Below, piece by piece: positions 26,815 through 40,084 of a stretch of 64,000 nucleotides of DNA. The DNA comes from Bdellovibrio sp. ZAP7. GTDB taxonomy: Bacteria > Bdellovibrionota > Bdellovibrionia > Bdellovibrionales > Bdellovibrionaceae. Below the pieces are notes generated by a model that saw only the letters and a program-made list of their open reading frames with translations, was not told where the DNA came from and did not search any database. The DNA is taken from the NCBI RefSeq assembly GCF_006874645.1, contig NZ_CP030082.1, positions 1,116,001 through 1,180,000 on the forward strand, in the 5' to 3' direction. How positions within the stretch are numbered: position 1 is the first letter of the stretch; each line of letters starts with the position of its first letter. The position numbers and the translations under genes were made by a program.

Positions 26815-26970
26815 ATGCGGTTGCTGGAGAGTTTTAAAAAATCGGGGAATTTCGTCACAGGTCTTTTTGCAATCCAAAAAGATATGACGAGAGAGGAGTG
26901 GGAGAAAATGGAGAGCAAAAAAGTAATTAATAAACACAAAGATCAAATCTACTGGGATGGGAAATATTAA
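26815..26970 (+). CDS. Small basic protein, start of transfer operon
   Basis: A 51-codon frame starting at the ATG at 26815 encodes a small charged protein rich in lysine, including FKKSGNF and EEWEKMESKK. Its stop overlaps the next start (TAATG). The frame stays open upstream to 26698 and has no canonical start next to the strong AAGGAGGT at 26743, although a GTG lies at 26794. The true start is thus uncertain. No family is recognised. Confidence 0.45.
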   Translation: MRLLESFKKSGNFVTGLFAIQKDMTREEWEKMESKKVINKHKDQIYWDGKY

Positions 26971-27236
26971 TGTCGCGGACTTTCAAGGACAAACGAGAAG
27001 TCAAAGTGAAGAGGAAGAAGTTCAAGCAAATGCTTTGGACGAAGAAGTTCGAGATCAACAAACTCGAGGGCGATGATGAAGAAAATGAAGAGTTGGATTT
27101 TTGTCCTGAGTGCAACTTCCCAACAGATTTTGAAGCAGGACTTCTTACTTGTTCCAAGTGCGGCTGGGGGAATTTTTATCCTGCCAACGGATTGGAAGAA
27201 GATTTTGAACCATTAGAATATCCAATGGCGGCATAA
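26970..27236 (+). CDS. Small zinc-ribbon protein
   Basis: The 88-residue product has a basic N-terminus (KDKREVKVKRKKFK) and a zinc-ribbon signature, CPEC and CSKC separated by 15 residues. Its C-terminus is acidic. Such small ribbons bind zinc and often bind nucleic acid or protein partners. It is overlapped by the preceding small gene and sits at the head of the transfer operon. No specific role is known. Confidence 0.65.
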   Translation: MSRTFKDKREVKVKRKKFKQMLWTKKFEINKLEGDDEENEELDFCPECNFPTDFEAGLLTCSKCGWGNFYPANGLEEDFEPLEYPMAA

Positions 27237-27249
27237 AGAGGAGGTATCA

Positions 27250-27648
27250 GTGACTTTTAATCAGAACGTTATTCCTTTAAAGAAGCTCGATAAATTTGCC
27301 CTCTGTCGGGGAACTATGGGGCCAGATGATGAACTCATCGAGTACGAGCAAGTAGGCGTTGCTTATCTAAAGCCGGGCTCCAAAACATTCCGAATTAAGC
27401 TTTGGATGTTCCCGAATGAACAATATTTCCTTTCTCCTTCTAACGATAAATCCACGGCTTACAAAATCTTGTCTTTGGAAGAATTTGAATCGCAATTGAA
27501 AGAGAAGAAGGCTTCTTGGCAATGCATTGGGAAAGGGGATTTCGTCGGATTGCATATCAGGATGAAGTTCAATCTTTTGTCTGAAGAGGTTTTTCTGTGT
27601 CTTTTCCCTGATGAGAAGCAAGCAGAGGAGTTTTATGCTGCAAGCTAG
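27250..27648 (+). CDS. Uncharacterised protein in transfer operon
   Basis: The 132-residue product starts at a GTG behind a strong GAGGAGG site. It has no signal peptide or membrane segment and looks like a soluble mixed alpha/beta protein. I see no motif with a known function. Its end overlaps the pilin gene start, so it is part of the transfer operon. Confidence 0.65.
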   Translation: MTFNQNVIPLKKLDKFALCRGTMGPDDELIEYEQVGVAYLKPGSKTFRIKLWMFPNEQYFLSPSNDKSTAYKILSLEEFESQLKEKKASWQCIGKGDFVGLHIRMKFNLLSEEVFLCLFPDEKQAEEFYAAS

Positions 27649-27949
27649 GAGCTTCAAGAAAATCGACTTGGCGAAAGTAGCTTTAGTTATCTTACTTCTC
27701 ATGTTGAGCATCTTGATGATTCCTATTGTTGCGCAAGCAAGTGTTGAATCCTCGCTCATGGGAGTTCAGACAAAACTTACGAGGGTAATCCTGCCTGTTC
27801 TTTCCGTAATTGGAATTGCTCTTGCCGGCCTTTCCTTTATTACCGGCCACGAGAACGCTAAGAAGCATATTATCTATGCGATCATAGGAACTGCCATTGG
27901 ATTTGGGGCCCAGTCTATTGCAGACATGATTTCCCAAACGGTCAGGTAG
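27635..27949 (+). CDS. VirB2/TrbC-like conjugative pilin
   Basis: I start at the ATG at 27635 (GAGGAG four bases upstream); the frame opens earlier at 27611. The 104-residue product has an N-terminal hydrophobic leader ending near AQASVES and two more membrane helices. This is the pattern of VirB2/TrbC major pilins. After processing it should be the pilus subunit. It is followed by a VirB3-like and a VirB4-like gene, the standard order. Confidence 0.8.
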   Translation: MLQARSFKKIDLAKVALVILLLMLSILMIPIVAQASVESSLMGVQTKLTRVILPVLSVIGIALAGLSFITGHENAKKHIIYAIIGTAIGFGAQSIADMISQTVR

Positions 27950-27951
27950 CT

Positions 27952-28278
27952 ATGAGTAATAACGATGAATTACTTACTTCAAATGTGCCGCGAACCCTCG
28001 AAACAAAAAGCAAAATTATGGGATTTGAATTGTCTGATGTGCTGATTCTGCTTCTGAATCTTTCGATTCAAAATCTGATTTTCGGGAGCACTCCGGTCAA
28101 GATTCCAATGGTCTTTGGAACGAGTGCTGTTATTGGGCTTATGCTTTTCTTTTTTAAGAAAGGAAAGCCTGAAAACCATATTCAACACTATTTTGAGCAT
28201 TTGCTTGCTCCAACTGTACGCTCGGCGAATGCGACCGATGAAACCTATCGTATCAAGAAGGGGGAATTCAATGAGTAG
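27952..28278 (+). CDS. VirB3/TraL-like membrane protein
   Basis: The 108-residue product has two closely spaced membrane helices in its middle and a conserved-looking C-terminal cytoplasmic part. Its size and position between pilin and VirB4 genes fit VirB3, which anchors VirB4 at the inner membrane. The sequence identity to known VirB3 is not obvious by eye, so the call leans on position. Confidence 0.65.
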   Translation: MSNNDELLTSNVPRTLETKSKIMGFELSDVLILLLNLSIQNLIFGSTPVKIPMVFGTSAVIGLMLFFFKKGKPENHIQHYFEHLLAPTVRSANATDETYRIKKGEFNE

Positions 28279-30736
28279 CAGCGCTTTATGTGAGTCGCTT
28301 CCATATTGGGAGTTTGAATCTGGTTCAAACCCTCATCTTTTACTTTGGGATGGATCGCTATCAAGTGGAATCGAAATCGTTCCAAAAGATATTGGCTGTC
28401 TTGATGCTCCTGCCATTAATCAAATCACTTTGAATCTAAGGACGTTGGTTAATTCTTTGCCGGAGAAGATGACGGCCCAAGTTTGTGTAAAGGTAGAGAC
28501 TGAATTCGGTGATGTTCTGGAGAGACACTCGAATCTAAGAATTACGGATAATGAGTTCTTAAAGGCTTTGGATGATGATCGCATTAGTGAGTTAAGTGGC
28601 CAAGTTCAGCGAGAGGAAGTTTATCGCCCGAGGGTGTATTTTTTCCTGAAAACCGAGTCGCCGGAAAAGCCATCTACACTCTCACTGAAGAAAACAAAGA
28701 AGTTTGCTGTGACGTACGGAAATGACATTTCGTCAGCGATTCAAAGCTTAATGCAGGCTTTGCAGAATGCTCAATCAATTTTGGGTTCAGCGGGCTTCCA
28801 GAGCAAAGTTCTATTTCGTGAACAAATGATTTCACTTGCATACAAACACTTAAATCCAAAAAGGGCGCAAGAAATTGATGCTCCGACAATTGCGGCAAGA
28901 CCCGAGTCGCTGGAGAACGAGTCCCCGAGAAATCAATTGGTCTTCGGCGATTTGATACTTAATCAAGAGGACTTTGTTTTAGATCGAACTGTTACAAGAG
29001 TTTTGTCGCTCAAAACTCTCCCGGAATCAACATTTGCGGGGATGATGAGCCTCTTTGCAAATGTAGCATTCAAATATGAAATGATCTTTTCTTTCTATAT
29101 TCCAGATCAGGCATCTGAGATGAAAGGCTTGGAGCAGAAGCGGCGTATGGCTCACTCGCTTACTACGAATAACCATGGTCGCGTGAGTGATTTGGAAGGG
29201 GAGTCGCGTCTTGCGCAGACTACTGATTTGATTAGGGAGATTATTGATACTGGTCAAAGAGTGTTTGTCGGTGAACTGCTATTAATACTTCGTGAGGAAA
29301 ACACCGCCCAGGGGAACAAAAGAATTAATCTTCGCAGCAAAGAAATCCTGTCTTGCTTCAGGAAGCTCAGTGGAGCAGAGGGAATTCAAGAAACTGTTGG
29401 AGCCTGGAAGATATTCTCGAGTGAGCTTATGGGAAGCCCAATGGAGCTTGTTCGTGGCAAAAAGATGAAGTCAAACAACTTGGCTGACTTTCTTCCCCTG
29501 TATGGCAGTGATGTTGGGGATGACCGACCATTGGTGCTGACTCATACGCGGTCGGGTTCTCTTTATGCGCTAGATTCGTATGATTCTAAACTAAATAACT
29601 ACAACTCGTTAGTGACCGGTTCTAGCGGCGCGGGAAAGAGTTTTACCAACAATTTTTTCATGCTTCAGCAAATAGCTCGAGGAGTAAAGCTTTTCGTTAT
29701 TGACGTTGGTGGAAGTTATAAAAAGCTAACGAATATTATGAAGGGTCAATACTTTGAAATCAATTTGACTGCTGAGTACGCTCTTAATCCCTTTCAGCTT
29801 CAGAACCCTGGAGACAAAGTTTCTTCGGAACGTATTAAGGCTCTAGTTAATATCATAGAGCAAATGATCGTAGATGAAGGGGAGAAGCTTCTGCGTTTTG
29901 ATCGGGTCTTGATTGAGGAGGCATTGGCGGCTGTATTCGAGGATATTCGTACTAAGACTCCTCAGAGATCGCCACAGATTTCTGACTTCGCCAGACACTG
30001 TGAGAAGTCCAAGGAAGAGACTCTTAAGCGTGTTGGAAAGCTCTTGTATCCTTGGATTGGAAACAGTGCCTACGGCAAGCTCATTGATTGTCAGGGGCAG
30101 ATCAATGCTGATAGTCCTGTCGTTGCATTCGATTTGAAGGGGCTTGCGCAGTATCCTGATCTTCAGTCGGTCGTAACTTTGATTCTCACTGGATTCATTT
30201 TGGATCAGGTGGAATTGAATAAGGACGTACCGAAGCGGGTTCTGCTTGATGAGGCTTGGTCATTCCTTCAGAGCAAAGCTGCGAGTACGTTCATGGAGTA
30301 TGCAGCGAGAGCTCTCAGGAAGACTGGCTCAGGAATCACGTTTATTACTCAGGGAGTTGAAGAAATCGTAGAAAGTGCGATTGGTTCGGCGATCTTGAAT
30401 AACACGGCGACGAAGATGATTCTTCAGCAACAAGGTGACACAAAGATATTGAAAGAAGCCCTGCGCTTAAACTCTCAAGAGGTTCGATTAATTGAAAGTT
30501 TAGATCGTAGGAAAGGCGCCTTTAGCGATGTTTTTGTGATGAATGGAGACTCAAGGCAAGTGCTGCGAATCCAACCATCACCAGTGGAATACTGGATTTC
30601 AACGAGTGATGCTTCTGACAACTGCTACCTGCAAGGAATTATAGATAGTGGCGTGTCGCTTGAAGAAGCAATTCTGAAAGCTGCGAAAGATGCACCTTTC
30701 GGAGTTGATTCACCGGCGACGAAGGTGGCTGCGTGA
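28271..30736 (+). CDS. virB4: VirB4/TraC-like secretion ATPase
   Basis: The start is the ATG at 28271 behind a GGGGGA site; the longer open frame begins inside the virB3-like gene. The 821-residue product has Walker A GSSGAGKS (near 450) and Walker B RVLLDEAW (near 657), with the typical C-terminal FITQGVEEI motif. It powers pilus assembly and substrate transfer at the inner membrane. Walker motifs are intact, so it should be active. It overlaps the preceding gene by eight bases and the next by four. Confidence 0.93.
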   Translation: MSSSALCESLPYWEFESGSNPHLLLWDGSLSSGIEIVPKDIGCLDAPAINQITLNLRTLVNSLPEKMTAQVCVKVETEFGDVLERHSNLRITDNEFLKALDDDRISELSGQVQREEVYRPRVYFFLKTESPEKPSTLSLKKTKKFAVTYGNDISSAIQSLMQALQNAQSILGSAGFQSKVLFREQMISLAYKHLNPKRAQEIDAPTIAARPESLENESPRNQLVFGDLILNQEDFVLDRTVTRVLSLKTLPESTFAGMMSLFANVAFKYEMIFSFYIPDQASEMKGLEQKRRMAHSLTTNNHGRVSDLEGESRLAQTTDLIREIIDTGQRVFVGELLLILREENTAQGNKRINLRSKEILSCFRKLSGAEGIQETVGAWKIFSSELMGSPMELVRGKKMKSNNLADFLPLYGSDVGDDRPLVLTHTRSGSLYALDSYDSKLNNYNSLVTGSSGAGKSFTNNFFMLQQIARGVKLFVIDVGGSYKKLTNIMKGQYFEINLTAEYALNPFQLQNPGDKVSSERIKALVNIIEQMIVDEGEKLLRFDRVLIEEALAAVFEDIRTKTPQRSPQISDFARHCEKSKEETLKRVGKLLYPWIGNSAYGKLIDCQGQINADSPVVAFDLKGLAQYPDLQSVVTLILTGFILDQVELNKDVPKRVLLDEAWSFLQSKAASTFMEYAARALRKTGSGITFITQGVEEIVESAIGSAILNNTATKMILQQQGDTKILKEALRLNSQEVRLIESLDRRKGAFSDVFVMNGDSRQVLRIQPSPVEYWISTSDASDNCYLQGIIDSGVSLEEAILKAAKDAPFGVDSPATKVAA

Positions 30737-31437
30737 GGAAGAGGGTTTTTGCGTTGCTAGTGTCGTCTATGATGCTGCTGGCACCAATGTCTGCGCGGGC
30801 CGATCTTTTTGGTGGGGATGTTGTCGTCCTAACACAAATCTTGGTTCAAACCATTCAAACGGTTATTCAGTTGAAGTCCATCCTTTCAAATGGGCAGGAT
30901 ACTTTGAATTTAATGAGGGATTTGAACTCTGGAGTACGATCCGGCCTTGATGTCATTCGAATTATCAATCCGAAATTCAATCCTGGAGTCTATGGTGACT
31001 TGAACAACTCAGATTCGGTGTTGCGTGCGATACAAGAGGTCTATGGGGAAGTCCCTCGCGGAATGGACCAGGATCTCATGACTTCGCAGGATCAGAGTGT
31101 TGCCGAGACTATCTCCATGAATAGAAGGCTTTATGACTATGCCGATGAAGTTGATCGAGAGCGTGATCGGATACTATATCATTCACAAGTTGTTAGCCCT
31201 CAAGGCGCAGGAAAACTTCAGAATCAGGCTCTGGGAGTGTTGATTGGCGTGACGACGCAACTCCTGCGCACTCAAAGCCAGATGTTAAAGCTTCTTGCTC
31301 AAAACATGGCTATGGAAAATCGCAGAGAGAAGATTCAGACGAAAGGGTTTCAAGAAAACTATCGAGACCTGTCTGATGGCCTCAAGAAACTTCCGATGGA
31401 AACTACTCTGCCACGTCTTCAAGGTGGTGGTCAGTGA
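30733..31437 (+). CDS. VirB5/TrbJ-like secreted protein
   Basis: The 234-residue product starts at a GTG that overlaps the virB4 stop. It has a signal peptide ending SARA, then a mostly helical mature part with coiled-coil character. VirB5/TrbJ proteins are minor pilus components involved in adhesion. The call rests on the signal peptide, the helical pattern and the place between virB4 and virB6. Confidence 0.7.
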   Translation: MRKRVFALLVSSMMLLAPMSARADLFGGDVVVLTQILVQTIQTVIQLKSILSNGQDTLNLMRDLNSGVRSGLDVIRIINPKFNPGVYGDLNNSDSVLRAIQEVYGEVPRGMDQDLMTSQDQSVAETISMNRRLYDYADEVDRERDRILYHSQVVSPQGAGKLQNQALGVLIGVTTQLLRTQSQMLKLLAQNMAMENRREKIQTKGFQENYRDLSDGLKKLPMETTLPRLQGGGQ

Positions 31438-32273
31438 TGCCCAATATGGATGTACTTGGTTCTTTGATTCGGGATTTGCATCACATGCTTGCGAATCTCT
31501 TCTATATAGCACTGCCAGTTGCGATATTGCTGTCTGTTTGCATCAGCTTCGTAAAAGGTGGAAGCCCTGATTATATGGATATAGTTCGAAGAGCATTGAT
31601 AGCGACACTTCTACTTGTTTCATTTCCAGAGGTTTCAGGCTGGATTCTGGATATTTGTGATGGGCTGGCGGGAAAGATTGATTCAATGGCTGGATTAGAT
31701 GCTTTCATGAAGATGGCGGAGGAGAAATCGAGAAGCTATGCGGGTGCACAGAGTGTACTCCTACTGAAGTTTAACGATCTGTTTATCGCGGTTTTGAGTT
31801 TTGCTAGTTACGTGATCCTTTACGTCGCCAGATATTTGACGATTGCTCTGTATTACTTTTTTTGGGTGATGCTTTCGGTTCTCTCACCGATTCTGATCCT
31901 TTGTTACTTATTCCCTGCAACTGCGGGAATCACGAAGGGACTGTATCGTGGATTAATCGAAGTCGCCTCTTGGAAAATTATATGGGCCGTGCAGTCGGCT
32001 ATGCTTGCGGCCTTGTCGGTCGGAAATATCTATAAGACTGAAGGATCGTATATCACTCTGACGGTTCTTAATTTTGTCATTGCAATTGGTCTGCTCTGTA
32101 CGCCGATGCTCGTAAAATCAATTGTTGGTGAGGGCTTGCAAAGTGCAGCTTCGACAATGGGCACTGCTGCTGCGGCCGCCATGATCGCAATTCCAACTCG
32201 GGCTATCAAGGTTTCGACTACATCGAGGGAGGTTCTCTCAAACAGCTTTAAATACTTTTCATCTAAGAAATAA
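31434..32273 (+). CDS. VirB6/TrbL-like polytopic membrane protein
   Basis: The 279-residue product has about six membrane helices separated by short loops, the pattern of VirB6/TrbL, which forms part of the inner-membrane channel. A GTG and an ATG are adjacent at the start (31434 and 31437). It follows the VirB5-like gene with a four-base overlap. There is no extended C-terminal domain like that found in large VirB6 proteins. Confidence 0.75.
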   Translation: MMPNMDVLGSLIRDLHHMLANLFYIALPVAILLSVCISFVKGGSPDYMDIVRRALIATLLLVSFPEVSGWILDICDGLAGKIDSMAGLDAFMKMAEEKSRSYAGAQSVLLLKFNDLFIAVLSFASYVILYVARYLTIALYYFFWVMLSVLSPILILCYLFPATAGITKGLYRGLIEVASWKIIWAVQSAMLAALSVGNIYKTEGSYITLTVLNFVIAIGLLCTPMLVKSIVGEGLQSAASTMGTAAAAAMIAIPTRAIKVSTTSREVLSNSFKYFSSKK

Positions 32274-32290
32274 AAAAGGAGGTAGAAATT

Positions 32291-32878
32291 ATGGAAACTA
32301 AATCACTGATTATTAAAAACTATCCGAAGATTGTGCAAGAGTTTGCACGGGAGAACTTCGATCTTAAAGTTCTCTCGGCGGCGCTGTTGGCAATTCTCTT
32401 CGTCATGTCAGGACTGATTGTATATTTCGTCAAGAGAGGCCCCGAGGTAATTGCACTTGATGCGACTGGGGCTATTGCTAAGCTCGAGTTGAAGATTACA
32501 GATGCGCAGATTGCTTCCGCAATTGAAGAGTATCTTTCATATCGCTACAAATGGACTCCAGACACTGTTGCTTTTCAGATGAAGAAAGCAGAGGTCTTTA
32601 TTGATCCGAGCCTAATTCCTTCATTTCAAAAGGCAATGGTGGATGTTCAAAAGTTTGTTAAAGAGAAGAAGGTGAATCAACGAGTCTATCCGAGCGATGT
32701 CAAAGTCGACTTGAAGCTGATGAAAGTCACCGTATTGGCCGACCGAATTACCGAATTTGACAGTTTGAGTGCGGCAACAAAACTGAAGGTAGTTTTTGAT
32801 TTTTCGTCGGGAGAACGAACAAGTCTGAATCCTTGGGGGATTTATATTCGTAAGGAAACTGAAGGAGAAATCCGTTGA
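32291..32878 (+). CDS. TraE/VirB8-like membrane protein
   Basis: The 195-residue product has one N-terminal membrane helix (residues about 30-48) and a periplasmic domain, the layout of TraE and VirB8. It has AGGAGG upstream. The protein would link inner- and outer-membrane parts of the secretion channel. The next two genes resemble TraK and VirB10 and follow in the same order as F-type traE-traK-traB. Confidence 0.75.
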   Translation: METKSLIIKNYPKIVQEFARENFDLKVLSAALLAILFVMSGLIVYFVKRGPEVIALDATGAIAKLELKITDAQIASAIEEYLSYRYKWTPDTVAFQMKKAEVFIDPSLIPSFQKAMVDVQKFVKEKKVNQRVYPSDVKVDLKLMKVTVLADRITEFDSLSAATKLKVVFDFSSGERTSLNPWGIYIRKETEGEIR

Positions 32879-33576
32879 GGGTTGCTATCCTAATTCATGT
32901 GGCGGCTATTTTCCTGACGTGTCATTCGTTCGCAAACATCAAAACTTTGACACCAAAGACTGATGAAATTGTTGATATCAAAACTGCTCTTGGCATCGCA
33001 ACTATCGTGCAAATGCCTGAAACTGTTCAGTCTGCTATTTCGGGAGACCTATCGGCGTATCGCATCGAATATTTAGATCAAGCTGTAACGATTAAGCCGT
33101 TGCGTGGAAGCGCAAAGACGAATTTGTACCTATTTACGAAATCTCGTAGGTACATACTTCGTCTTGCCGTGGTTCCTCAAAACTTGGCTAACTACGTTGT
33201 ATATATCAAGAACAGAGACTCTGGGATGATCCTACGTTGGATAAGCAATGGGAAGACTGCCTCAACTCCTGACCTGTCATTGAAGCTTTTGAGGACCTCC
33301 ACTACATCAGACGGCTTCGTGCTTTTGGATGCTGAGGTAACCGCGAAGACTTCACAAACTCTAATGCCGGGAAACTTTTGGATTTGGCAAGGAAAGGACT
33401 CGAAGCCAATGCAAAGTCTTTTTCTTTCGCGCAAGGAGTTGCGAAAAGACCAACGAGCTATGATTGGCATTTCAATTAGAAAGGCCGATCTCAAGAATCA
33501 ACCTGTCATATTGGAACTTCAAAGTCCTTCTAAGAGCCTCAAAATTGAGATTCCAAAAGAGGCCCTATGGAATTAA
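32875..33576 (+). CDS. TraK/VirB9-like periplasmic protein
   Basis: The 233-residue product starts at a TTG overlapping the previous stop (GAAGGAG site). It has a signal peptide ending SFA and a beta-rich mature domain. Its position between the VirB8-like and VirB10-like genes supports TraK/VirB9, which forms the outer-membrane core complex with VirB10 and a small lipoprotein. Sequence motifs alone would not be decisive. Confidence 0.65.
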   Translation: MRVAILIHVAAIFLTCHSFANIKTLTPKTDEIVDIKTALGIATIVQMPETVQSAISGDLSAYRIEYLDQAVTIKPLRGSAKTNLYLFTKSRRYILRLAVVPQNLANYVVYIKNRDSGMILRWISNGKTASTPDLSLKLLRTSTTSDGFVLLDAEVTAKTSQTLMPGNFWIWQGKDSKPMQSLFLSRKELRKDQRAMIGISIRKADLKNQPVILELQSPSKSLKIEIPKEALWN

Positions 33577-34472
33577 TGGCTAAGCTAAAGGGGATATTCG
33601 TCCGGAAGGGTAGCTTTAGTTCAAAGATTGAATTGAAACTGTCTTCATTCAAGTGGTTGGGGATTGTGGGTTTGGCGGTATTTGTAGTAGTCGTTTTGTT
33701 AATGCCTAACGAGCTCCCGGTAGAGTTCTCTGAGAAGATCGAGCCATCAATCGAACCGGGAATTGAAAGCTCCCGAAATACCCAGGCCAAATTTGATTCG
33801 AAACAACTCTGGTCAGCCCCAAAGAGAGAAAGCTTTGGAGCAGGAGGCGACAGCAGACAAATTGACTATAATACGGCAATGATCATTGGATCGGGAGGAA
33901 ATGCGAAATCGAGACTTCATCCTGGAGTGAGATTGCCTCTGCGGATTTTAGATAAGGTCGTCGTGTCGCAAGAATCAGTTCCAGTTCTTGCAGAGCTTCT
34001 TATGGATAGTGAGACGGAATCTGGCTTAAAGCTTCAAGCAGGGACGAAGTTCTATGGAGAGGCCACTTTTATGAAGGGAAGTGATCGGGCCTTAATCCAA
34101 TTTAAACAAATCGCTCTCTTAAATGGACAGTTGAAGCCCATCAATGCCAGAGCACTCGGAAAAGATGGCCAGGCCGGACTACAAGGGAGAGTCTATTCTG
34201 ATGGAGCTAAAAATACAGCGGGGCAAGTAATTACATCTTTCGTGGGAGGGCTTGCGGCTGGGAGTGTACAGACAGATATTTTTGGTAGATCTCAGGGCGG
34301 CATCGGAAATGGGGTTCTGACTGCTGTAGCTGAAACTGCCAGAGGTAAGGCTCAATCTTATGGAGAGAACCTAAAAGCAGAGCGTGAGTGGATTGAGCTT
34401 CAGCCGAACTCTGAATGTGATGCTCAATTGTCCGAGGCAATGGATCTACAGTCAGGATCGTCAATTGAATAA
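33567..34472 (+). CDS. VirB10/TraB-like channel protein
   Basis: The 301-residue product has one membrane helix near the N-terminus (residues about 29-47) and a conserved C-terminal beta-barrel region with motifs such as GTKFYGEATF and VGGLAAGSV. VirB10 spans the periplasm and reaches the outer membrane. It overlaps the previous gene by ten bases and the coupling protein by eight. It is short for a VirB10, with only a brief linker after the helix. Confidence 0.85.
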   Translation: MELMAKLKGIFVRKGSFSSKIELKLSSFKWLGIVGLAVFVVVVLLMPNELPVEFSEKIEPSIEPGIESSRNTQAKFDSKQLWSAPKRESFGAGGDSRQIDYNTAMIIGSGGNAKSRLHPGVRLPLRILDKVVVSQESVPVLAELLMDSETESGLKLQAGTKFYGEATFMKGSDRALIQFKQIALLNGQLKPINARALGKDGQAGLQGRVYSDGAKNTAGQVITSFVGGLAAGSVQTDIFGRSQGGIGNGVLTAVAETARGKAQSYGENLKAEREWIELQPNSECDAQLSEAMDLQSGSSIE

Positions 34473-36051
34473 TAACGATAGCAAAGAGCTATTCGGGATC
34501 GTTATGTTGATTGTTCTGTTTGTTGTACTGGCGTTTCATAATTTGGCGCCACAAATACTGAGTGCCATTGTTAGACACCGATATATGACTGCCTCAGTCA
34601 TATCGTTTGTGGTCATGTTATTTTTCGCAAAGTTTAGAACTGAGTTTGCAGAAAGGTCGAAGGCGAAGGAAATCAAAACTCGCCTTAATCGAGTAACTGC
34701 AAAGGATAGTATTTTCCTTGGGACATCGGTAGATCAGAATCCAGTCTACATTCCACTGACGGCAAGACGAATGCACACGCAGATTGTCGGAACGACAAAT
34801 GCGGGAAAAACAGAGTCGGTGATTTTGCCCTGGGCAATTGATGACATTAAGAATGGCCGAGGACTTATTTTGATTGATGGGAAATCTGATAAGGGCTTGT
34901 TGGACAAATTATATGCCTATGCTGTGAAGTACAAGCGATCCAAAGACTTCAGGATGTTATCGCTAGTAAACCCGGAAACAAGCTCGAGTATTAATCCGCT
35001 GAAAGGTGGATCGGCTGATGAAGTGACTGAGCGGATCTTTGCTGCCTTCTCCTTTGAAGATGAATATTACAAAAATCTTCAGTACGAGGTCTTGAAGCAA
35101 ACTCTATACTTGTTTGAGCGGGCTGGTGTCATTCCGACTTTCAATAAATTGATTCAGGCAATTACGAATCCATCAGTTCTTATGTCTTTGGCGAATTCGA
35201 CGGACGACCCAGGTTTAACGGCCTGGGCGGATCGCTTTGTTGCTCTATCAAAAGAAGATCGGGAAAAAAGAACAAGTGGCCTAGTTAATCAGTTGGGGCA
35301 TTTCACTTCGGGAGATACGGCGATTCTCTTTAACTCTGACATGCCACAGATCGACATAGAGCATGTAATGCGTGAAGGGCTTATCGTCTATTTCCAATTG
35401 CCCGTTTTGAAGACTCCGACGCTTGGAAAGGCAACAGCCAAGTTAATACTTCAATGTATCCAAAGTTCGGTATCAAGTCGGCATTTGGATGAAGATAAGA
35501 GCTTTCCATTTTTCGGAGTCTATCTGGATGACTTCACCGAGTACCTGATTCCGAGTTTTGTCAGTCTTCTGAACAAATCTAGAAGTGCCAATGTCGGAAT
35601 CACTTTTGCGCATCAGGCTCAGGGGGACCTCGGCGCACTTGGTGAGGAGGTGAAGAACACGATCCAGACGAATTCAAACCTGAAAGTATTCATGCGAACC
35701 AATGAGCCCGAAACTGCGGAATATTTCTCAAGACTCATCGGGACCAAAGAGGGAACGAAGATGACTGAGAGAGCTAAGAAAGGATTGTTTGGAAATGAGA
35801 GGACTGGGGATGGGTCAGTACGTGATGTCGAAGAGTTCATTTATCACCCGAACACGTTCAAAAAAGAACTTGGAACGGGGGACGGAGTTATTGTCGTTCC
35901 ATTTAATGATGGAGCATTTACAGAACGTCTGAAGTTTCAAATGCAACCCGATTTAAAAGCACAAAAGCTTCCTCGGATTGCGAAGGCGAAAGTGGAGTTC
36001 ATTGAACTTAAAGGTTCCCAAAATAGATCTTCAATATTGGAGGCAAGCTGA
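34465..36051 (+). CDS. TraD/VirD4-type coupling protein
   Basis: The start is a TTG at 34465 with AGGA upstream, overlapping the VirB10 end; an ATG at 34504 is also possible. Two membrane helices precede a large ATPase domain with Walker A GTTNAGKT (near residue 110) and Walker B GVYLDDFTEY (near 352). Coupling proteins bring DNA-protein substrates to the secretion channel. The C-terminus is short and lacks a long relaxosome-binding tail. It is the strongest evidence for DNA transfer in this element, because no relaxase was found. Confidence 0.88.
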   Translation: MNNNDSKELFGIVMLIVLFVVLAFHNLAPQILSAIVRHRYMTASVISFVVMLFFAKFRTEFAERSKAKEIKTRLNRVTAKDSIFLGTSVDQNPVYIPLTARRMHTQIVGTTNAGKTESVILPWAIDDIKNGRGLILIDGKSDKGLLDKLYAYAVKYKRSKDFRMLSLVNPETSSSINPLKGGSADEVTERIFAAFSFEDEYYKNLQYEVLKQTLYLFERAGVIPTFNKLIQAITNPSVLMSLANSTDDPGLTAWADRFVALSKEDREKRTSGLVNQLGHFTSGDTAILFNSDMPQIDIEHVMREGLIVYFQLPVLKTPTLGKATAKLILQCIQSSVSSRHLDEDKSFPFFGVYLDDFTEYLIPSFVSLLNKSRSANVGITFAHQAQGDLGALGEEVKNTIQTNSNLKVFMRTNEPETAEYFSRLIGTKEGTKMTERAKKGLFGNERTGDGSVRDVEEFIYHPNTFKKELGTGDGVIVVPFNDGAFTERLKFQMQPDLKAQKLPRIAKAKVEFIELKGSQNRSSILEAS

Positions 36052-36062
36052 AAGGAGGCCAA

Positions 36063-36362
36063 TTGAGATTACTAATTTTGTTTTTTGTATTAGCAACGAT
36101 GGGCTGCGTGAGTAAACCGACCTGTGCCAATAGCAAGGACGGATTTGGTGCGGTCTATGACTCAGCCAGAGGTTGTTCGATTCGAGTTAGGCAGGTGGTA
36201 ATAGGTTCAGAGTTGGAGTTGCCAAAGTCTTTAGATTTTAAATCTTCTGACATGAAGTGGAGCTATCAGTGGGTGGAGACTAATTTTCACAATGGTGTTT
36301 TGGAGCTGGGACATTTTGCTTTGGTCCCGATTGGTTCTGGAGTTTTGAATAGTGAGAAGTAG
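36063..36362 (+). CDS. Small lipoprotein, possible VirB7 counterpart
   Basis: The 99-residue product starts at a TTG and has a lipobox ending in TMGC. The mature part carries two further cysteines. VirB7-type lipoproteins stabilise VirB9 at the outer membrane, and this gene sits between the coupling protein gene and the next transfer gene, overlapping the latter. The match to VirB7 is by type and position only. Confidence 0.55.
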   Translation: MRLLILFFVLATMGCVSKPTCANSKDGFGAVYDSARGCSIRVRQVVIGSELELPKSLDFKSSDMKWSYQWVETNFHNGVLELGHFALVPIGSGVLNSEK

Positions 36363-37122
36363 TTCGATTGAAGAAGCTTTACTTCTTTCGAAGAAGTTTG
36401 GCTTCATTTCAAAAGGAGTCTTCTGGGATTTCTGCTGCTCAGAAGGAAAGTCGGTCCGCTATCAGAATTGGAGTGAGCTTAAGAACTCACCTTTATTTAC
36501 AGCTTATTCGAACGGATCGGGAGTTCCTGATTTCCTTTCATTGAGTTCAAAGGGGAAGCAAAGAATGGGGCAGGATTCTATCGGTCAGATTGTTCCAACC
36601 TATTTGCTACATGATGAGATTGTTATGCGGTTTTATCTTCACCTCAAGAATGAACAGATGTTGAGGCAAAGCTGGTCTGAGGCTGAACTAAAATCAGATC
36701 GAGTTATTGCTGTTAAAGGATTGGGTGATGGAATTATCTCCAAACTGCCAGACTTACTTTTTGATGTAACGGGGGGTAGCAACTTCATTCGTTGCGCTCT
36801 CGAGATCGAGCGGACAAGAAAATCGCAAGCACGGTATAAAACCATGAGGCGAGCCTATCAAAGAGCACGAAGCGTAGACTTGGTTCTTTTCGGAGTGGCA
36901 GACGAGAAAATCGAAACAGTGATTTCGGAAGAATTTAAAACCGGTGGATTGAACTTGGCGAACCAAGAGATCGGATTTTTTGATTTGGATAATTTCTCTC
37001 AGCGGCAATTGGATTGTGAACTTCGGATTGCAGGGAGGAAAACCACTCTGAAGAAGTTCTTCAATTCTCTGGCAGCATCAGTGAAGAGAACGCCGGAAAA
37101 TCACCGGAATGTTTCCGGTTGA
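36352..37122 (+). CDS. PD-(D/E)XK/Replic_Relax-like protein
   Basis: The 256-residue product (GTG start) has a winged-helix-like N-terminal half and a C-terminal half with a nuclease-type core. That core has Pro133-Asp134 (KLPDLL), then Glu151-Ile-Glu153 (ALEIERTRKS) with Lys157 and a helix with RYKTMRRAYQRA. The spacing resembles the PD-(D/E)XK fold of replication-relaxation (Replic_Relax) proteins, which are encoded by conjugative elements beside a coupling protein. No catalytic tyrosine or HUH motif is seen. A role in DNA processing at the transfer origin is inferred. Confidence 0.6.
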   Translation: MRSSSIEEALLLSKKFGFISKGVFWDFCCSEGKSVRYQNWSELKNSPLFTAYSNGSGVPDFLSLSSKGKQRMGQDSIGQIVPTYLLHDEIVMRFYLHLKNEQMLRQSWSEAELKSDRVIAVKGLGDGIISKLPDLLFDVTGGSNFIRCALEIERTRKSQARYKTMRRAYQRARSVDLVLFGVADEKIETVISEEFKTGGLNLANQEIGFFDLDNFSQRQLDCELRIAGRKTTLKKFFNSLAASVKRTPENHRNVSG

Positions 37123-37187: not shown

Positions 37188-37282
37188 CTTCCTCCCACCT
37201 CCATCCCCCTCCTGCGGTTCGTGACCCCTCCCTCCCTACGAGAGAAAGGGGTCACGAAACGGGGGATGGAGGTGGGAGGAAG
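37188..37282. repeat. 95-bp nested inverted repeat
   Basis: The outer arms (37188-37209 and 37261-37282) are perfect 22-bp complements. Inside them, 12-bp arms TTCGTGACCCCT and AGGGGTCACGAA (37218-37229, 37247-37258) are also perfect. The folded form would be a long, strongly GC-rich cruciform or RNA hairpin. It lies just after the transfer operon and before the small DNA-binding genes, where an origin of transfer or a strong terminator would be expected. Confidence 0.8.
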
Positions 37283-37346
37283 AAGATATGAAAGATAGAT
37301 AGAAAATATTTAGATAGATACAAAACACAAACACTTGAAATTATAA

Positions 37347-37442
37347 GAGGCAGGTAGCTGAAGTGCAGTTGAGATTAAAAAATGCAGTTTTAGATTTGGT
37401 CATTGATGGGCTTCGACTTTAGACAGTTAGGCTACCTACCTC
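37347..37442. repeat. Spaced inverted repeat upstream of DNA-binding genes
   Basis: GAGGCAGGTAGC (37347-37358) pairs with GCTACCTACCTC (37431-37442) with one mismatch and 72 bases between. The middle holds a direct repeat TGCAGTT and an AT-rich stretch. Together with the hairpin at 37188 this fills the 395-base gene-free gap between 37122 and 37518, and may bind the protein encoded at 37518 or the recombinase. Confidence 0.5.
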
Positions 37443-37517
37443 ATATAATTTCAGATTCTGCGAATGATGGATGCTACAGGCGGCGCATCCCGATTTTGAA
37501 TACAGGGAGGAAAATAA

Positions 37518-37904
37518 ATGGAAGAGAAAGAAGAATTAGTTACGAAGATCACTATTACCAAGCAAGCCGAAGAGGCAGTCAGTCAAATTGTGGCCCGTGT
37601 TAATGAGGGGTTTGATGCGGGAAGAGTAACAAGACAAGATGTGGCAAGTTGGGTTTTGACACGATTCAATGAGACATGTGTTGAAGGTGATGTGCAGCAG
37701 ATCAGGTCTGAGTTTTTCAATGAAATTGCGTTGTTGGAGAATATTCTGAAGAAAGCAAAGCAAAGTGGTTCAGTCCCAGAAGAATTGAAGTTGGCATTAA
37801 TGGGGCAGGCCAATATAAGTCTTGGTGGTGCAAAGAAGACAAAGAGAGGCTTGACTAGTAAGTTGACCAATGGTCAACATGAAGAAAGCGGAGATGCAAC
37901 TTGA
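37518..37904 (+). CDS. Possible relaxosome or DNA-binding accessory protein
   Basis: The 128-residue product begins with a strand-like segment KITITKQAEEAV followed by helices, a pattern seen in ribbon-helix-helix proteins. The C-terminus is basic (KKTKRGLTSKL). Proteins of this type bind near transfer origins in conjugative elements (MobC or TraM functions), but no family is certain. GGAGG precedes the ATG. The stop overlaps the next gene. Confidence 0.5.
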   Translation: MEEKEELVTKITITKQAEEAVSQIVARVNEGFDAGRVTRQDVASWVLTRFNETCVEGDVQQIRSEFFNEIALLENILKKAKQSGSVPEELKLALMGQANISLGGAKKTKRGLTSKLTNGQHEESGDAT

Positions 37905-38140
37905 GTCCAGACAGATTTCGAGAAATTCGTTTAGGGTTGAACCTAACACAGGCTGATACAGCCCTCATTCTTGGAGTGGCCGACAAAACAGTTATTAGTA
38001 GGTACGAGGCCGGTGGTCGCCGTCCAAATAATTTGATGTCGGCTGTGATGGAAGTTTTGGCGAGTTTACCAAGAAAAGAATCTGAGCGACTCGTTGAGCT
38101 TTTGAAGAAGCACGTCGCCCTGCAAAGAAGCGATAATTGA
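37901..38140 (+). CDS. XRE-family HTH regulator
   Basis: The 79-residue product starts at a TTG overlapping the upstream stop. It has a clear XRE helix-turn-helix (LNLTQADTALILGVADKTVI, then RYEAGGRRP) and a helical C-terminus. Such small regulators usually control integration or transfer in mobile elements. It lies between the DNA-binding protein and the integrase-proximal gene, all translationally linked. Confidence 0.8.
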   Translation: MSPDRFREIRLGLNLTQADTALILGVADKTVISRYEAGGRRPNNLMSAVMEVLASLPRKESERLVELLKKHVALQRSDN

Positions 38141-38337
38141 AGAGAGGTCGCAAAGAAATCCCCAGTTACAAATTACCTGTGCCATTGAGGATCATTTTGA
38201 AACCCCAGCCAGAGCCTTCGATTGAATTTGAGAAGCGGGCTAAGGAAGTCAAAGACATGATTGCTAAAGTAATTTTAATTGCAAATAAAAGGGGACGACC
38301 TTCGCAAAAGGATGATGAATATGAAGAAGCAGCTTAA
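38137..38337 (+). CDS. Small AT-hook-like protein next to integrase
   Basis: The 66-residue product starts at a TTG overlapping the previous stop and overlaps the integrase start. It contains two short basic motifs, KRGRKEIP and NKRGRPSQ, of the AT-hook type that binds the minor groove. Its place directly before a serine recombinase makes it a candidate recombination directionality factor. That function is inferred only from position and basic character. Confidence 0.55.
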   Translation: MKRGRKEIPSYKLPVPLRIILKPQPEPSIEFEKRAKEVKDMIAKVILIANKRGRPSQKDDEYEEAA

Positions 38338-40084
38338 CATTGGTGCCTACATTCGAGTTTCAACGGATCGTCAGGTGCAGGTATTTGAAGGATCATTGGA
38401 TACTCAGAAGTACAGAATGCTTGAGTTTGTAAATGCTCGAAATAGAGATCAAAAGTCCTGGGGAGAAATCGTCGAGTTCTATGTCGATGAAGGTCTTTCT
38501 GCCGGAACAGACCGTCGTCCACAATATCAAAAAATGATGGCGGATGTTCGTTCAGGTAAAATCAATTTGATTCTCGTGGCCGATATCTCTCGCTTATCAA
38601 GAAGTGTCCATGACTTTAGCGTGCTGTTGAGAGAGCTAGAAAACCACAATGCGAGTTACCTTTCAATGAAGGAACAATTTGATACGACGACTCCAGCAGG
38701 ACGATTGATGATCAATATGGTTGTCAATATGGCTCAGTTTGAGCGAGAGCAAACGTCCGAGAGAGTTGCGATTAATTGTAACTCGCGTGCCATGAGAGGG
38801 TTCGTCAATGGAGCAAGACCAGTTCTTGGCTTTTCACGTCATCCAGATAAGTCAGGTGTACTTGTTATCAATGACATGGACGCAAAAAAGATCAGAAAGA
38901 TTTTCGAGATCTTCCTCGAAGAAGGTACCATTGGTAAAACGCTTCCAATAATTGAATCATTAAAAATTCTGCCTCGTTCATCTAAGAATGTTGAGCGTGT
39001 TTCGATTTCTCCACGTTGGAACTACTCAGCGGTTCGCGATATTCTCACTAATCCTGCTTATGTGGGACTGAAAGAAGTAAATAAGAAGAATAAAGGAGCG
39101 GACCCCGAGACACTAAAGCCGTGGCAGCACTACCAAGTCGTTAAAGCTTCATGGGATGGGATCATCGAGAAGGCAGTATTTGATCAAGTTCAAGAGGTTC
39201 TGCAGCAAAACGCTCTTTTGGAGCGCCGAAAAATGGAAGAGGCTGAAAGACGTGTATTCCTGCTGTCAGGAATTCTTCGCTGCGGAGAGTGTGGTAGGAC
39301 TTTAAGTGGACAATCTGCGCATGGTGAAAAGGCTGTACACCGATATTACTCCCATTCTTACAAGCGCGGATCTGAATCAAGTTGTAGCCTAAAGAGAATT
39401 CGCGCTGATGAGATCGAAGATGTGGTCATATCTTATTTAACGAATGTAGTCTCTCGCGCGGGCTATATGAGTGGGATCGAAGAGAATTTGAAATCGGCAG
39501 TTAATATGACTCCGGCAAGCTATTCCGAACAAATTGGAAATGTTAAAAATGCGCTTTCTGAAGTCGAAATAGAAATTAAGGCGACATTCAAATTGCAAAT
39601 GAAGACGTCTCTGGGGGATGAGGCAGCTTCGTTGGCAGTTCAACATCTTGAAGAGCTGGGGCAGAAAAAGAAACAGCTTGGGACTTTGTTGGCTAAACTT
39701 AAAGATCAAGAAGGTACGGTCGTTGACACTGACAGTGTTATGAATGCCATTAAGAATAGAGTTGCAGACTTTAAGAAGGGATTTCCCAAAGCAAATGCAT
39801 TCTTGAAAAGACGTCTATTGAGGAAGGTTTTGAAGGAATTAATTCTAACTGATCGCGGACTTGAAACATCATTCAACGTCGATATTGGAAATCCAAATCA
39901 GACGGAAGATGACTCTTTGTCTTATGAATATGGCAAGTTGTTGAGCTTTAAGCGCAAAGTTATGAATAACGACAGTTCGCCATCAGTGCCTCTTAGGGCC
40001 ACCGGGCCTGATTTTACTCCGTCGTTTGAATTATTGCTTAATGATGGAAATGGATGGGGTAGCAGGACTCGAACCTGCGAATGA
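38321..40084 (+). CDS. Large serine recombinase (integrase)
   Basis: I use the ATG at 38321; ATGs at 38312 and 38315 are in frame. The 587-residue product has the resolvase catalytic domain with the nucleophile Ser14 in YIRVSTDRQ. A recombinase domain follows, then a zinc ribbon (CGECGRTL near residue 320, with a later cysteine) and a long coiled coil. This is the full length of large serine integrases, which join attP and attB without host factors. The last 10-12 codons (GWGSRTRTCE) are the complement of the tRNA-Gln 3' end, so the stop codon lies within the attachment site. Confidence 0.92.
   Translation: MKKQLNIGAYIRVSTDRQVQVFEGSLDTQKYRMLEFVNARNRDQKSWGEIVEFYVDEGLSAGTDRRPQYQKMMADVRSGKINLILVADISRLSRSVHDFSVLLRELENHNASYLSMKEQFDTTTPAGRLMINMVVNMAQFEREQTSERVAINCNSRAMRGFVNGARPVLGFSRHPDKSGVLVINDMDAKKIRKIFEIFLEEGTIGKTLPIIESLKILPRSSKNVERVSISPRWNYSAVRDILTNPAYVGLKEVNKKNKGADPETLKPWQHYQVVKASWDGIIEKAVFDQVQEVLQQNALLERRKMEEAERRVFLLSGILRCGECGRTLSGQSAHGEKAVHRYYSHSYKRGSESSCSLKRIRADEIEDVVISYLTNVVSRAGYMSGIEENLKSAVNMTPASYSEQIGNVKNALSEVEIEIKATFKLQMKTSLGDEAASLAVQHLEELGQKKKQLGTLLAKLKDQEGTVVDTDSVMNAIKNRVADFKKGFPKANAFLKRRLLRKVLKELILTDRGLETSFNVDIGNPNQTEDDSLSYEYGKLLSFKRKVMNNDSSPSVPLRATGPDFTPSFELLLNDGNGWGSRTRTCE

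Follow-up and report, generated by a model that had tools for sequence, protein, structure and literature searches.

A probable divergent MOBC-type relaxase and a hairpin proposed as its origin of transfer in an integrative element of Bdellovibrio sp. ZAP7

How is DNA processed for transfer by an operon that carries a coupling protein but seemingly no relaxase? The question is raised by a 64,000-nucleotide stretch of Bdellovibrio sp. ZAP7 (contig NZ_CP030082.1, positions 1,116,001 to 1,180,000), hereafter the window, to which unprefixed coordinates refer; the host genome is a single contig of 4.12 Mb. A sequence-only reading had described a transfer operon at 26970-37122 with no recognisable relaxase or VirB11, and had proposed that a PD-(D/E)XK-like protein beginning at position 36352 processes DNA in place of a relaxase, by a little-described transfer strategy. 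We conclude from homology and a predicted fold that this protein is probably itself a relaxase, a divergent member of the MOBC type that falls outside the cut-off of the NF041423 model. The preferred account, to which we give a probability of roughly 0.7, is that an integrative and conjugative element (ICE), one of a family widespread in the Bdellovibrio order, has its transfer module here, that the 36352 protein is its MOBC-type relaxase, and that a hairpin at 37188-37282 is its origin of transfer (oriT).

36352-37122, plus strand: putative divergent MOBC-type relaxase, winged helix plus PD-(D/E)XK nuclease domain (hhalign comparison, invariant residues, NF041423 matches of relatives, structure model and fold matches).

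MOBC relaxases, which are PD-(D/E)XK enzymes, occur on both plasmids and ICEs (PMC12857230, PMC5714925); for one of them, TraX, a covalent intermediate was not observed (PMC12857230). A search of 60 related genomes gave relatives of the 36352 protein in 18; viral contigs had none. A tblastn search against plasmids recovered no MobC, so profiles were needed to detect the homology. When the 12-member family was compared with seven plasmid MobC proteins using hhalign, the two aligned over 157 columns with a probability of 96.7 and an E value of 4e-10. Positions H87-D88, P133-D134, E151-x-E153, K157 and R161-Y162 are invariant in the family alignment, and seven residues (H87, D134, E151, E153, K157, R161 and Y162) are invariant across all 19 proteins. 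NF041423 was matched by 10 of the 12 family members (best 8e-7), and Pfam, including PF13814 (Replic_Relax), gave no match for the 36352 protein or its 11 relatives. Note that the CloDF13 record has neither an annotated mobC nor a recognised intact mobC open reading frame (ORF); a Citrobacter plasmid with 96.5% DNA identity over the mob region was used as a stand-in, and its MobC is among the seven compared.

In most MOBC plasmids read, the MobC gene immediately follows that of the type IV coupling protein (T4CP), and the same order is found here apart from an interposed lipoprotein gene. In an AlphaFold2 (AF2) model (pLDDT 77, pTM 0.80), a winged helix at the N-terminus is followed by a C-terminal fold that matches many restriction endonucleases and Holliday-junction resolvases, with middling Z scores that are supportive but not decisive alone. 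Homology to CloDF13-type MobC, the D/E/E/K motif and a restriction-endonuclease-like fold are thus all present, and the assignment as a MOBC-type relaxase follows from the hhalign score, the invariant residues, the T4CP-MobC order and the predicted fold. The proposal that the protein processes DNA is therefore well supported, and structure prediction left the nuclease idea standing; the notion that it does so in place of a relaxase falls away, as does that of an undescribed route, because the MOBC class is known, if little studied, and is itself PD-(D/E)XK-like.

The second part of the proposed system lies in the gap that follows the relaxase gene.

37188-37282, plus strand: candidate oriT, a nested DNA hairpin of ~95 nt with an outer stem of ~22 bp, an inner stem of 12 bp and the loop CCCTCCCTACGAGAGAA (folding, covariation, MobC linkage).
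37330-37455, plus strand: second, imperfect inverted repeat (GAGGCAGGTAG / CTACCTACCTC) between the hairpin and the gene at 37518, present in a subset of elements.
37518-37904, plus strand: small conserved protein 3' of the hairpin, kept in 13 elements read.

Folded as DNA, the gap gives a z score of -8.6. Ten other elements carry this structure, again placed between mobC and the homologue of 37518. Of 248 cells in an eight-sequence alignment, 98% are paired. Fourteen pairs are changed on both sides, accounting for 31 cells as compared with 8.0 in shuffles (0 of 500 reach 31), and not a single cell has a change on one side. When 39 loci were aligned to a covariance model of the hairpin, 1119 of 1163 cells were Watson-Crick and 4 were G.T, although this alignment was fitted to the model. 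Such strict symmetry of the arms points to a function as DNA rather than RNA. Conservation is concentrated in the inner stem and loop (about TGACCnCyCCCnCyCwACGA), and the outer arms are variable. Rfam yielded only eukaryotic microRNA models, all below their gathering scores, as might happen with any long near-perfect hairpin; these matches were discounted. Plasmid MOBC regions gave a weak structural match only, unrelated in sequence, and the tandem element to the left (L001, L002) has no copy.

The hairpin is linked to MobC. In a scan anchored on the protein only, the strongest hairpin within ~1.5 kb lay 68-164 bp beyond the mobC stop codon in 17 of 20 loci. Among 141 genomes of the order, 65 have a match to the covariance model. 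Of 97 hairpins (E up to ~3e-5), 57 have a listed MobC no more than 1 kb away, against an expectation of ~0.1%. The element holds conserved, structured intergenic DNA linked to the relaxase gene, as expected of an oriT, and we infer that the hairpin is probably the oriT.

In five further loci (L075, L076, L077, L085 and L087), the neighbour of the hairpin is a serine recombinase, and the stretch read shows no match to a type IV secretion system (T4SS) or MobC. Two of the five recombinases overlap tRNA-Leu, and no exact attachment-site (att) repeats were found within the 20 kb read. One hairpin (L059, G019:C7) and the hairpin of a congeneric ICE (L004) have identical inner stem-loops. Elements known as iOriT hitchhikers are integrative, carry an oriT signal and lack a relaxase (PMC11389934), and by analogy we read the relaxase-free loci as putative oriT-only hitchhiker islands. 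Adjoining one such island (L075:1000-4992) are genes for an ATPase with apparently two AAA-type domains and for a restriction-endonuclease-like protein, possibly the defence cargo of an adjacent tandem island.

The model that we favour would run as follows. The serine recombinase would excise the element as a circle; the relaxase would recognise the hairpin by its conserved inner stem and loop, perhaps with the 37518 protein as a helper, and would nick one strand there; the adjacent T4CP would then hand the nicked strand to the VirB channel. Mobilisation in trans would serve the small hairpin islands, which have a recombinase of their own and lack a relaxase. The computed basis of the model is gene content, MOBC homology, the predicted fold, the att repeat, conservation of the hairpin and its linkage to mobC. 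The wider proposal, that large DNA hairpins form an undescribed class of oriT recognised by a MOBC relaxase and that relaxase-free islands across the order hitchhike by means of hairpin copies, is one towards which we lean only slightly.

Several results count against the favoured account. The only meaningful single-sequence match of the 36352 protein is NF041423 (MobC_subf) at 13.2 bits, far from the cut-off of 200 and thus outside that subfamily; it has no Pfam match; and one of five AF2 models was confident, from an alignment of three sequences only. In sequence the hairpin matches no known oriT, and a listed MobC is missing within 1 kb of 40 of the 97 model matches, some of which adjoin a MobC too divergent for the list. 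Weak single-sequence scores would also be expected if the 36352 protein were a regulator, or a restriction-like nuclease of some other role, with the relaxase encoded elsewhere, and the genome-wide search covered only some relaxase families. That the catalytic residues are shared with MobC, that the profile comparison with MobC gives an E value of 4e-10, that the position after T4CP is kept in 18 further loci, and that the genome has no PF03432 match and the element proteins no relaxase match make this very improbable. We give even less credence to a decayed, non-transferable relic: the truncated second recombinase at the left junction would fit it, but the ORFs of the module are intact and match those of relatives over their full length, the catalytic residues are retained and the att copies are present.

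Two other explanations leave the relaxase in place and reassign the hairpin. It could be an RNA or regulatory element (a terminator, an attenuator or an SGI1-like small RNA) between the operon and the recombinase module. It does sit between two gene blocks and is very stable when folded as RNA, and mobilisation of SGI1 is reported to require a small RNA (PMC9299015). A drifting RNA helix would, by contrast, be expected to show G.T pairs and one-sided changes, of which there are almost none and none, respectively; no T-run follows the hairpin; and in some loci it lies upstream of MobC, in others beside tyrosine integrases. We consider this explanation unlikely. Distinctly less probable is that the hairpin serves the serine recombinase as an accessory recombination or regulatory site. 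The relaxase-free copies adjoin serine recombinases, and in the ICEs a recombinase also lies downstream of the hairpin, but at L088 the hairpin stands between a MobC-like gene and a tyrosine integrase, and at L091-L095 MobC-hairpin pairs occur with no serine recombinase recognised within 4.5 kb (by motif patterns only).

The operon as originally described, VirB2-3-4-5-6-8-9-10 with a coupling protein, a lipoprotein and a PD-(D/E)XK-like protein, was borne out by ORF positions, profiles and synteny, and is tightly packed. Upstream of the relaxase gene it comprises:

26970-27236, plus strand: leading gene 1, Cys-rich and zinc-ribbon-like (weak Zn-ribbon match only; order kept in related elements).
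27250-27648, plus strand: leading gene 2, small conserved protein (order kept in related elements).
27611-27949, plus strand: VirB2 pilin (PF04956, 9e-11).
27952-28278, plus strand: VirB3/TraL-like protein (TIGR02762, TraL, 1e-4, weak).
28271-30736, plus strand: VirB4/TraC-type ATPase (TIGR02746, TraC-F-type, 5e-89; PF19044, TraG P-loop, 6e-45).
30733-31437, plus strand: VirB5 (synteny, without a profile match).
31434-32273, plus strand: VirB6 (TrbL, 1e-3, weak; synteny).
32291-32878, plus strand: VirB8 (TraE, 5e-5, weak; synteny).
32875-33576, plus strand: VirB9 (CagX; TIGR02781).
33567-34472, plus strand: VirB10 (TrbI).
34420-36051, plus strand: VirD4/TraD-like T4CP (PF12696, TraG-D_C, 2e-12; TIGR03743, SXT_TraD, 3e-33; start codon uncertain).
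36063-36362, plus strand: small lipoprotein with lipobox LATMGC (from sequence; kept in most, not all, related elements).

Pfam and NCBIfam support is clear for VirB2, VirB4, VirB9, VirB10 and T4CP and weak for VirB3, VirB6 and VirB8; for VirB3, VirB5, VirB6 and VirB8, conserved gene order in related elements lends support. The lipoprotein might, at a guess, take a VirB7-like role. The best models are F-type TraC for VirB4 and P-type VirB9 for VirB9. As a means of finding VirB4, the family PF03135 was rejected, since it has no match anywhere in the genome whereas TraC models match. The absence of VirB11 from the element, also claimed earlier, was upheld: the six T2SSE ATPase domains of the genome all lie elsewhere. 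This is not anomalous in itself because the F-plasmid T4SS likewise has no VirB11 (PMC12857230). The full VirB set including VirB11 that marks mating-pair formation type T (MPF_T) is therefore incomplete, and the T4SS is VirB-like but of mixed type.

The remaining features of the window belong to the recombination module and the right end of the element.

37901-38140, plus strand: HTH_3 (helix-turn-helix) regulator, recombination module (PF01381, 2e-5; synteny).
38137-38337, plus strand: small protein, recombination module (synteny).
38279-40084, plus strand: large serine recombinase, the integrase (PF00239, PF07508, PF13408), its 3' end overlapping tRNA-Gln.
40031-40056, no strand: right att copy of 26 bp, TTATTGCTTAATGATGGAAATGGATG, with the repeat matched at the left end.
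L001:5770-5795, outside the window: left att copy of 26 bp, repeat of 40031-40056.

The att copies and the recombinase overlapping tRNA-Gln mark both ends, giving a length of ~54 kb from the left copy beyond the window. An integrase, att repeats, a T4SS, a T4CP and a probable relaxase, the gene complement of an ICE, are carried on this one element. Cargo left of the window includes arsenic, copper and RND-type metal-resistance genes. No relaxase family match, HUH relaxases included, was obtained among the element proteins scanned against Pfam (all the larger transfer-end proteins and 20 left-part proteins; inspection by eye served for a few ORFs, among them some P-type ATPases), so the standard relaxase that might have lain to the left did not appear among the proteins scanned there. 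PF03432 was searched in the whole genome, with zero matches, and the other relaxase families were not searched genome-wide. For the 37518 protein, a relaxosome helper is our guess; AF2 of the protein alone was of low confidence and its profile found no convincing PDB relative.

The element is in tandem with a remnant, and the truncated second recombinase at the left junction (L001:4621-6360, genome 1100621-1102360) is 73% identical to the window recombinase. Its reading frame crosses the att copy and continues in the next element, which lengthens the C-terminal part and adds a helix-turn-helix; following integration, the window recombinase ends in tRNA-derived codons instead. Integration may switch the recombinase C-terminus. 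Left of the element (L002:399-10955), consecutive helicase, adenine-methyltransferase-like and large ATPase genes resemble, by eye, a DNA-methylation defence cluster.

The full module (VirB set, T4CP, MobC, usually the lipoprotein, the 37518 gene, the helix-turn-helix gene and the recombinase) occurs in 18 further loci in several families of the order, some partly present at contig ends. The nearest relative (G021, L034:4276-17389) has VirB, T4CP and MobC proteins 90-99% identical to those described here, but its recombinase, close to tRNA-Pro, is only 43% identical; the integration module has been exchanged. Two loci (L040:5746-8210 and L042:8845-11142) carry ~2.3-2.5 kb of additional DNA between virB8 and virB9, and the insert at L042 begins with a recombinase-like match. 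Within the literature collection searched, no paper joins Bdellovibrio, conjugative and MOBC.

An apparently relaxase-less operon in a predatory bacterium is in this way resolved as a divergent MOBC system. How relaxases of this class recognise DNA and transfer a strand is poorly understood, and the hairpin gives them a specific candidate oriT. Searching with the hairpin model brings up both helper elements and putative oriT-only hitchhikers throughout the order, so that who moves whom among predatory bacteria can be tested directly.

Among known systems, the closest are CloDF13 MobC and its relatives, which with TraX of pAD1 are the studied MOBC members. Like the 36352 protein, they combine a winged helix with a PD-(D/E)XK-like domain, have the H/D/E/E/K/RY residues and are encoded after a T4CP gene. 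The 36352 protein differs from them in its identity of only ~15%, in lying outside the NF041423 cut-off and in its setting: its gene belongs to an ICE of predatory bacteria, is separated from that of T4CP by a lipoprotein gene and has the hairpin 3' of it. MOBC conjugative plasmids with MPF_T, such as Citrobacter pS39-3, also keep T4SS, T4CP and MobC together, but these are plasmids with VirB11, a topoisomerase and other genes; pS39-3 has a large nested inverted repeat upstream of T4CP and MobC (L029:12690-12800) that is like the hairpin in layout, not in sequence. The F-type T4SS shares a VirB4 nearest to TraC-F models, the absence of VirB11 and TraL/TraE-like VirB3 and VirB8, whereas the element has P-type VirB9 and VirB10 and none of the extra F genes was recognised. 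The relaxase-free hairpin loci, finally, are proposed to resemble iOriT integrative mobilizable elements in having an oriT-like signal and no relaxase; none of those in the literature found is from this order, and here the oriT is a putative one.

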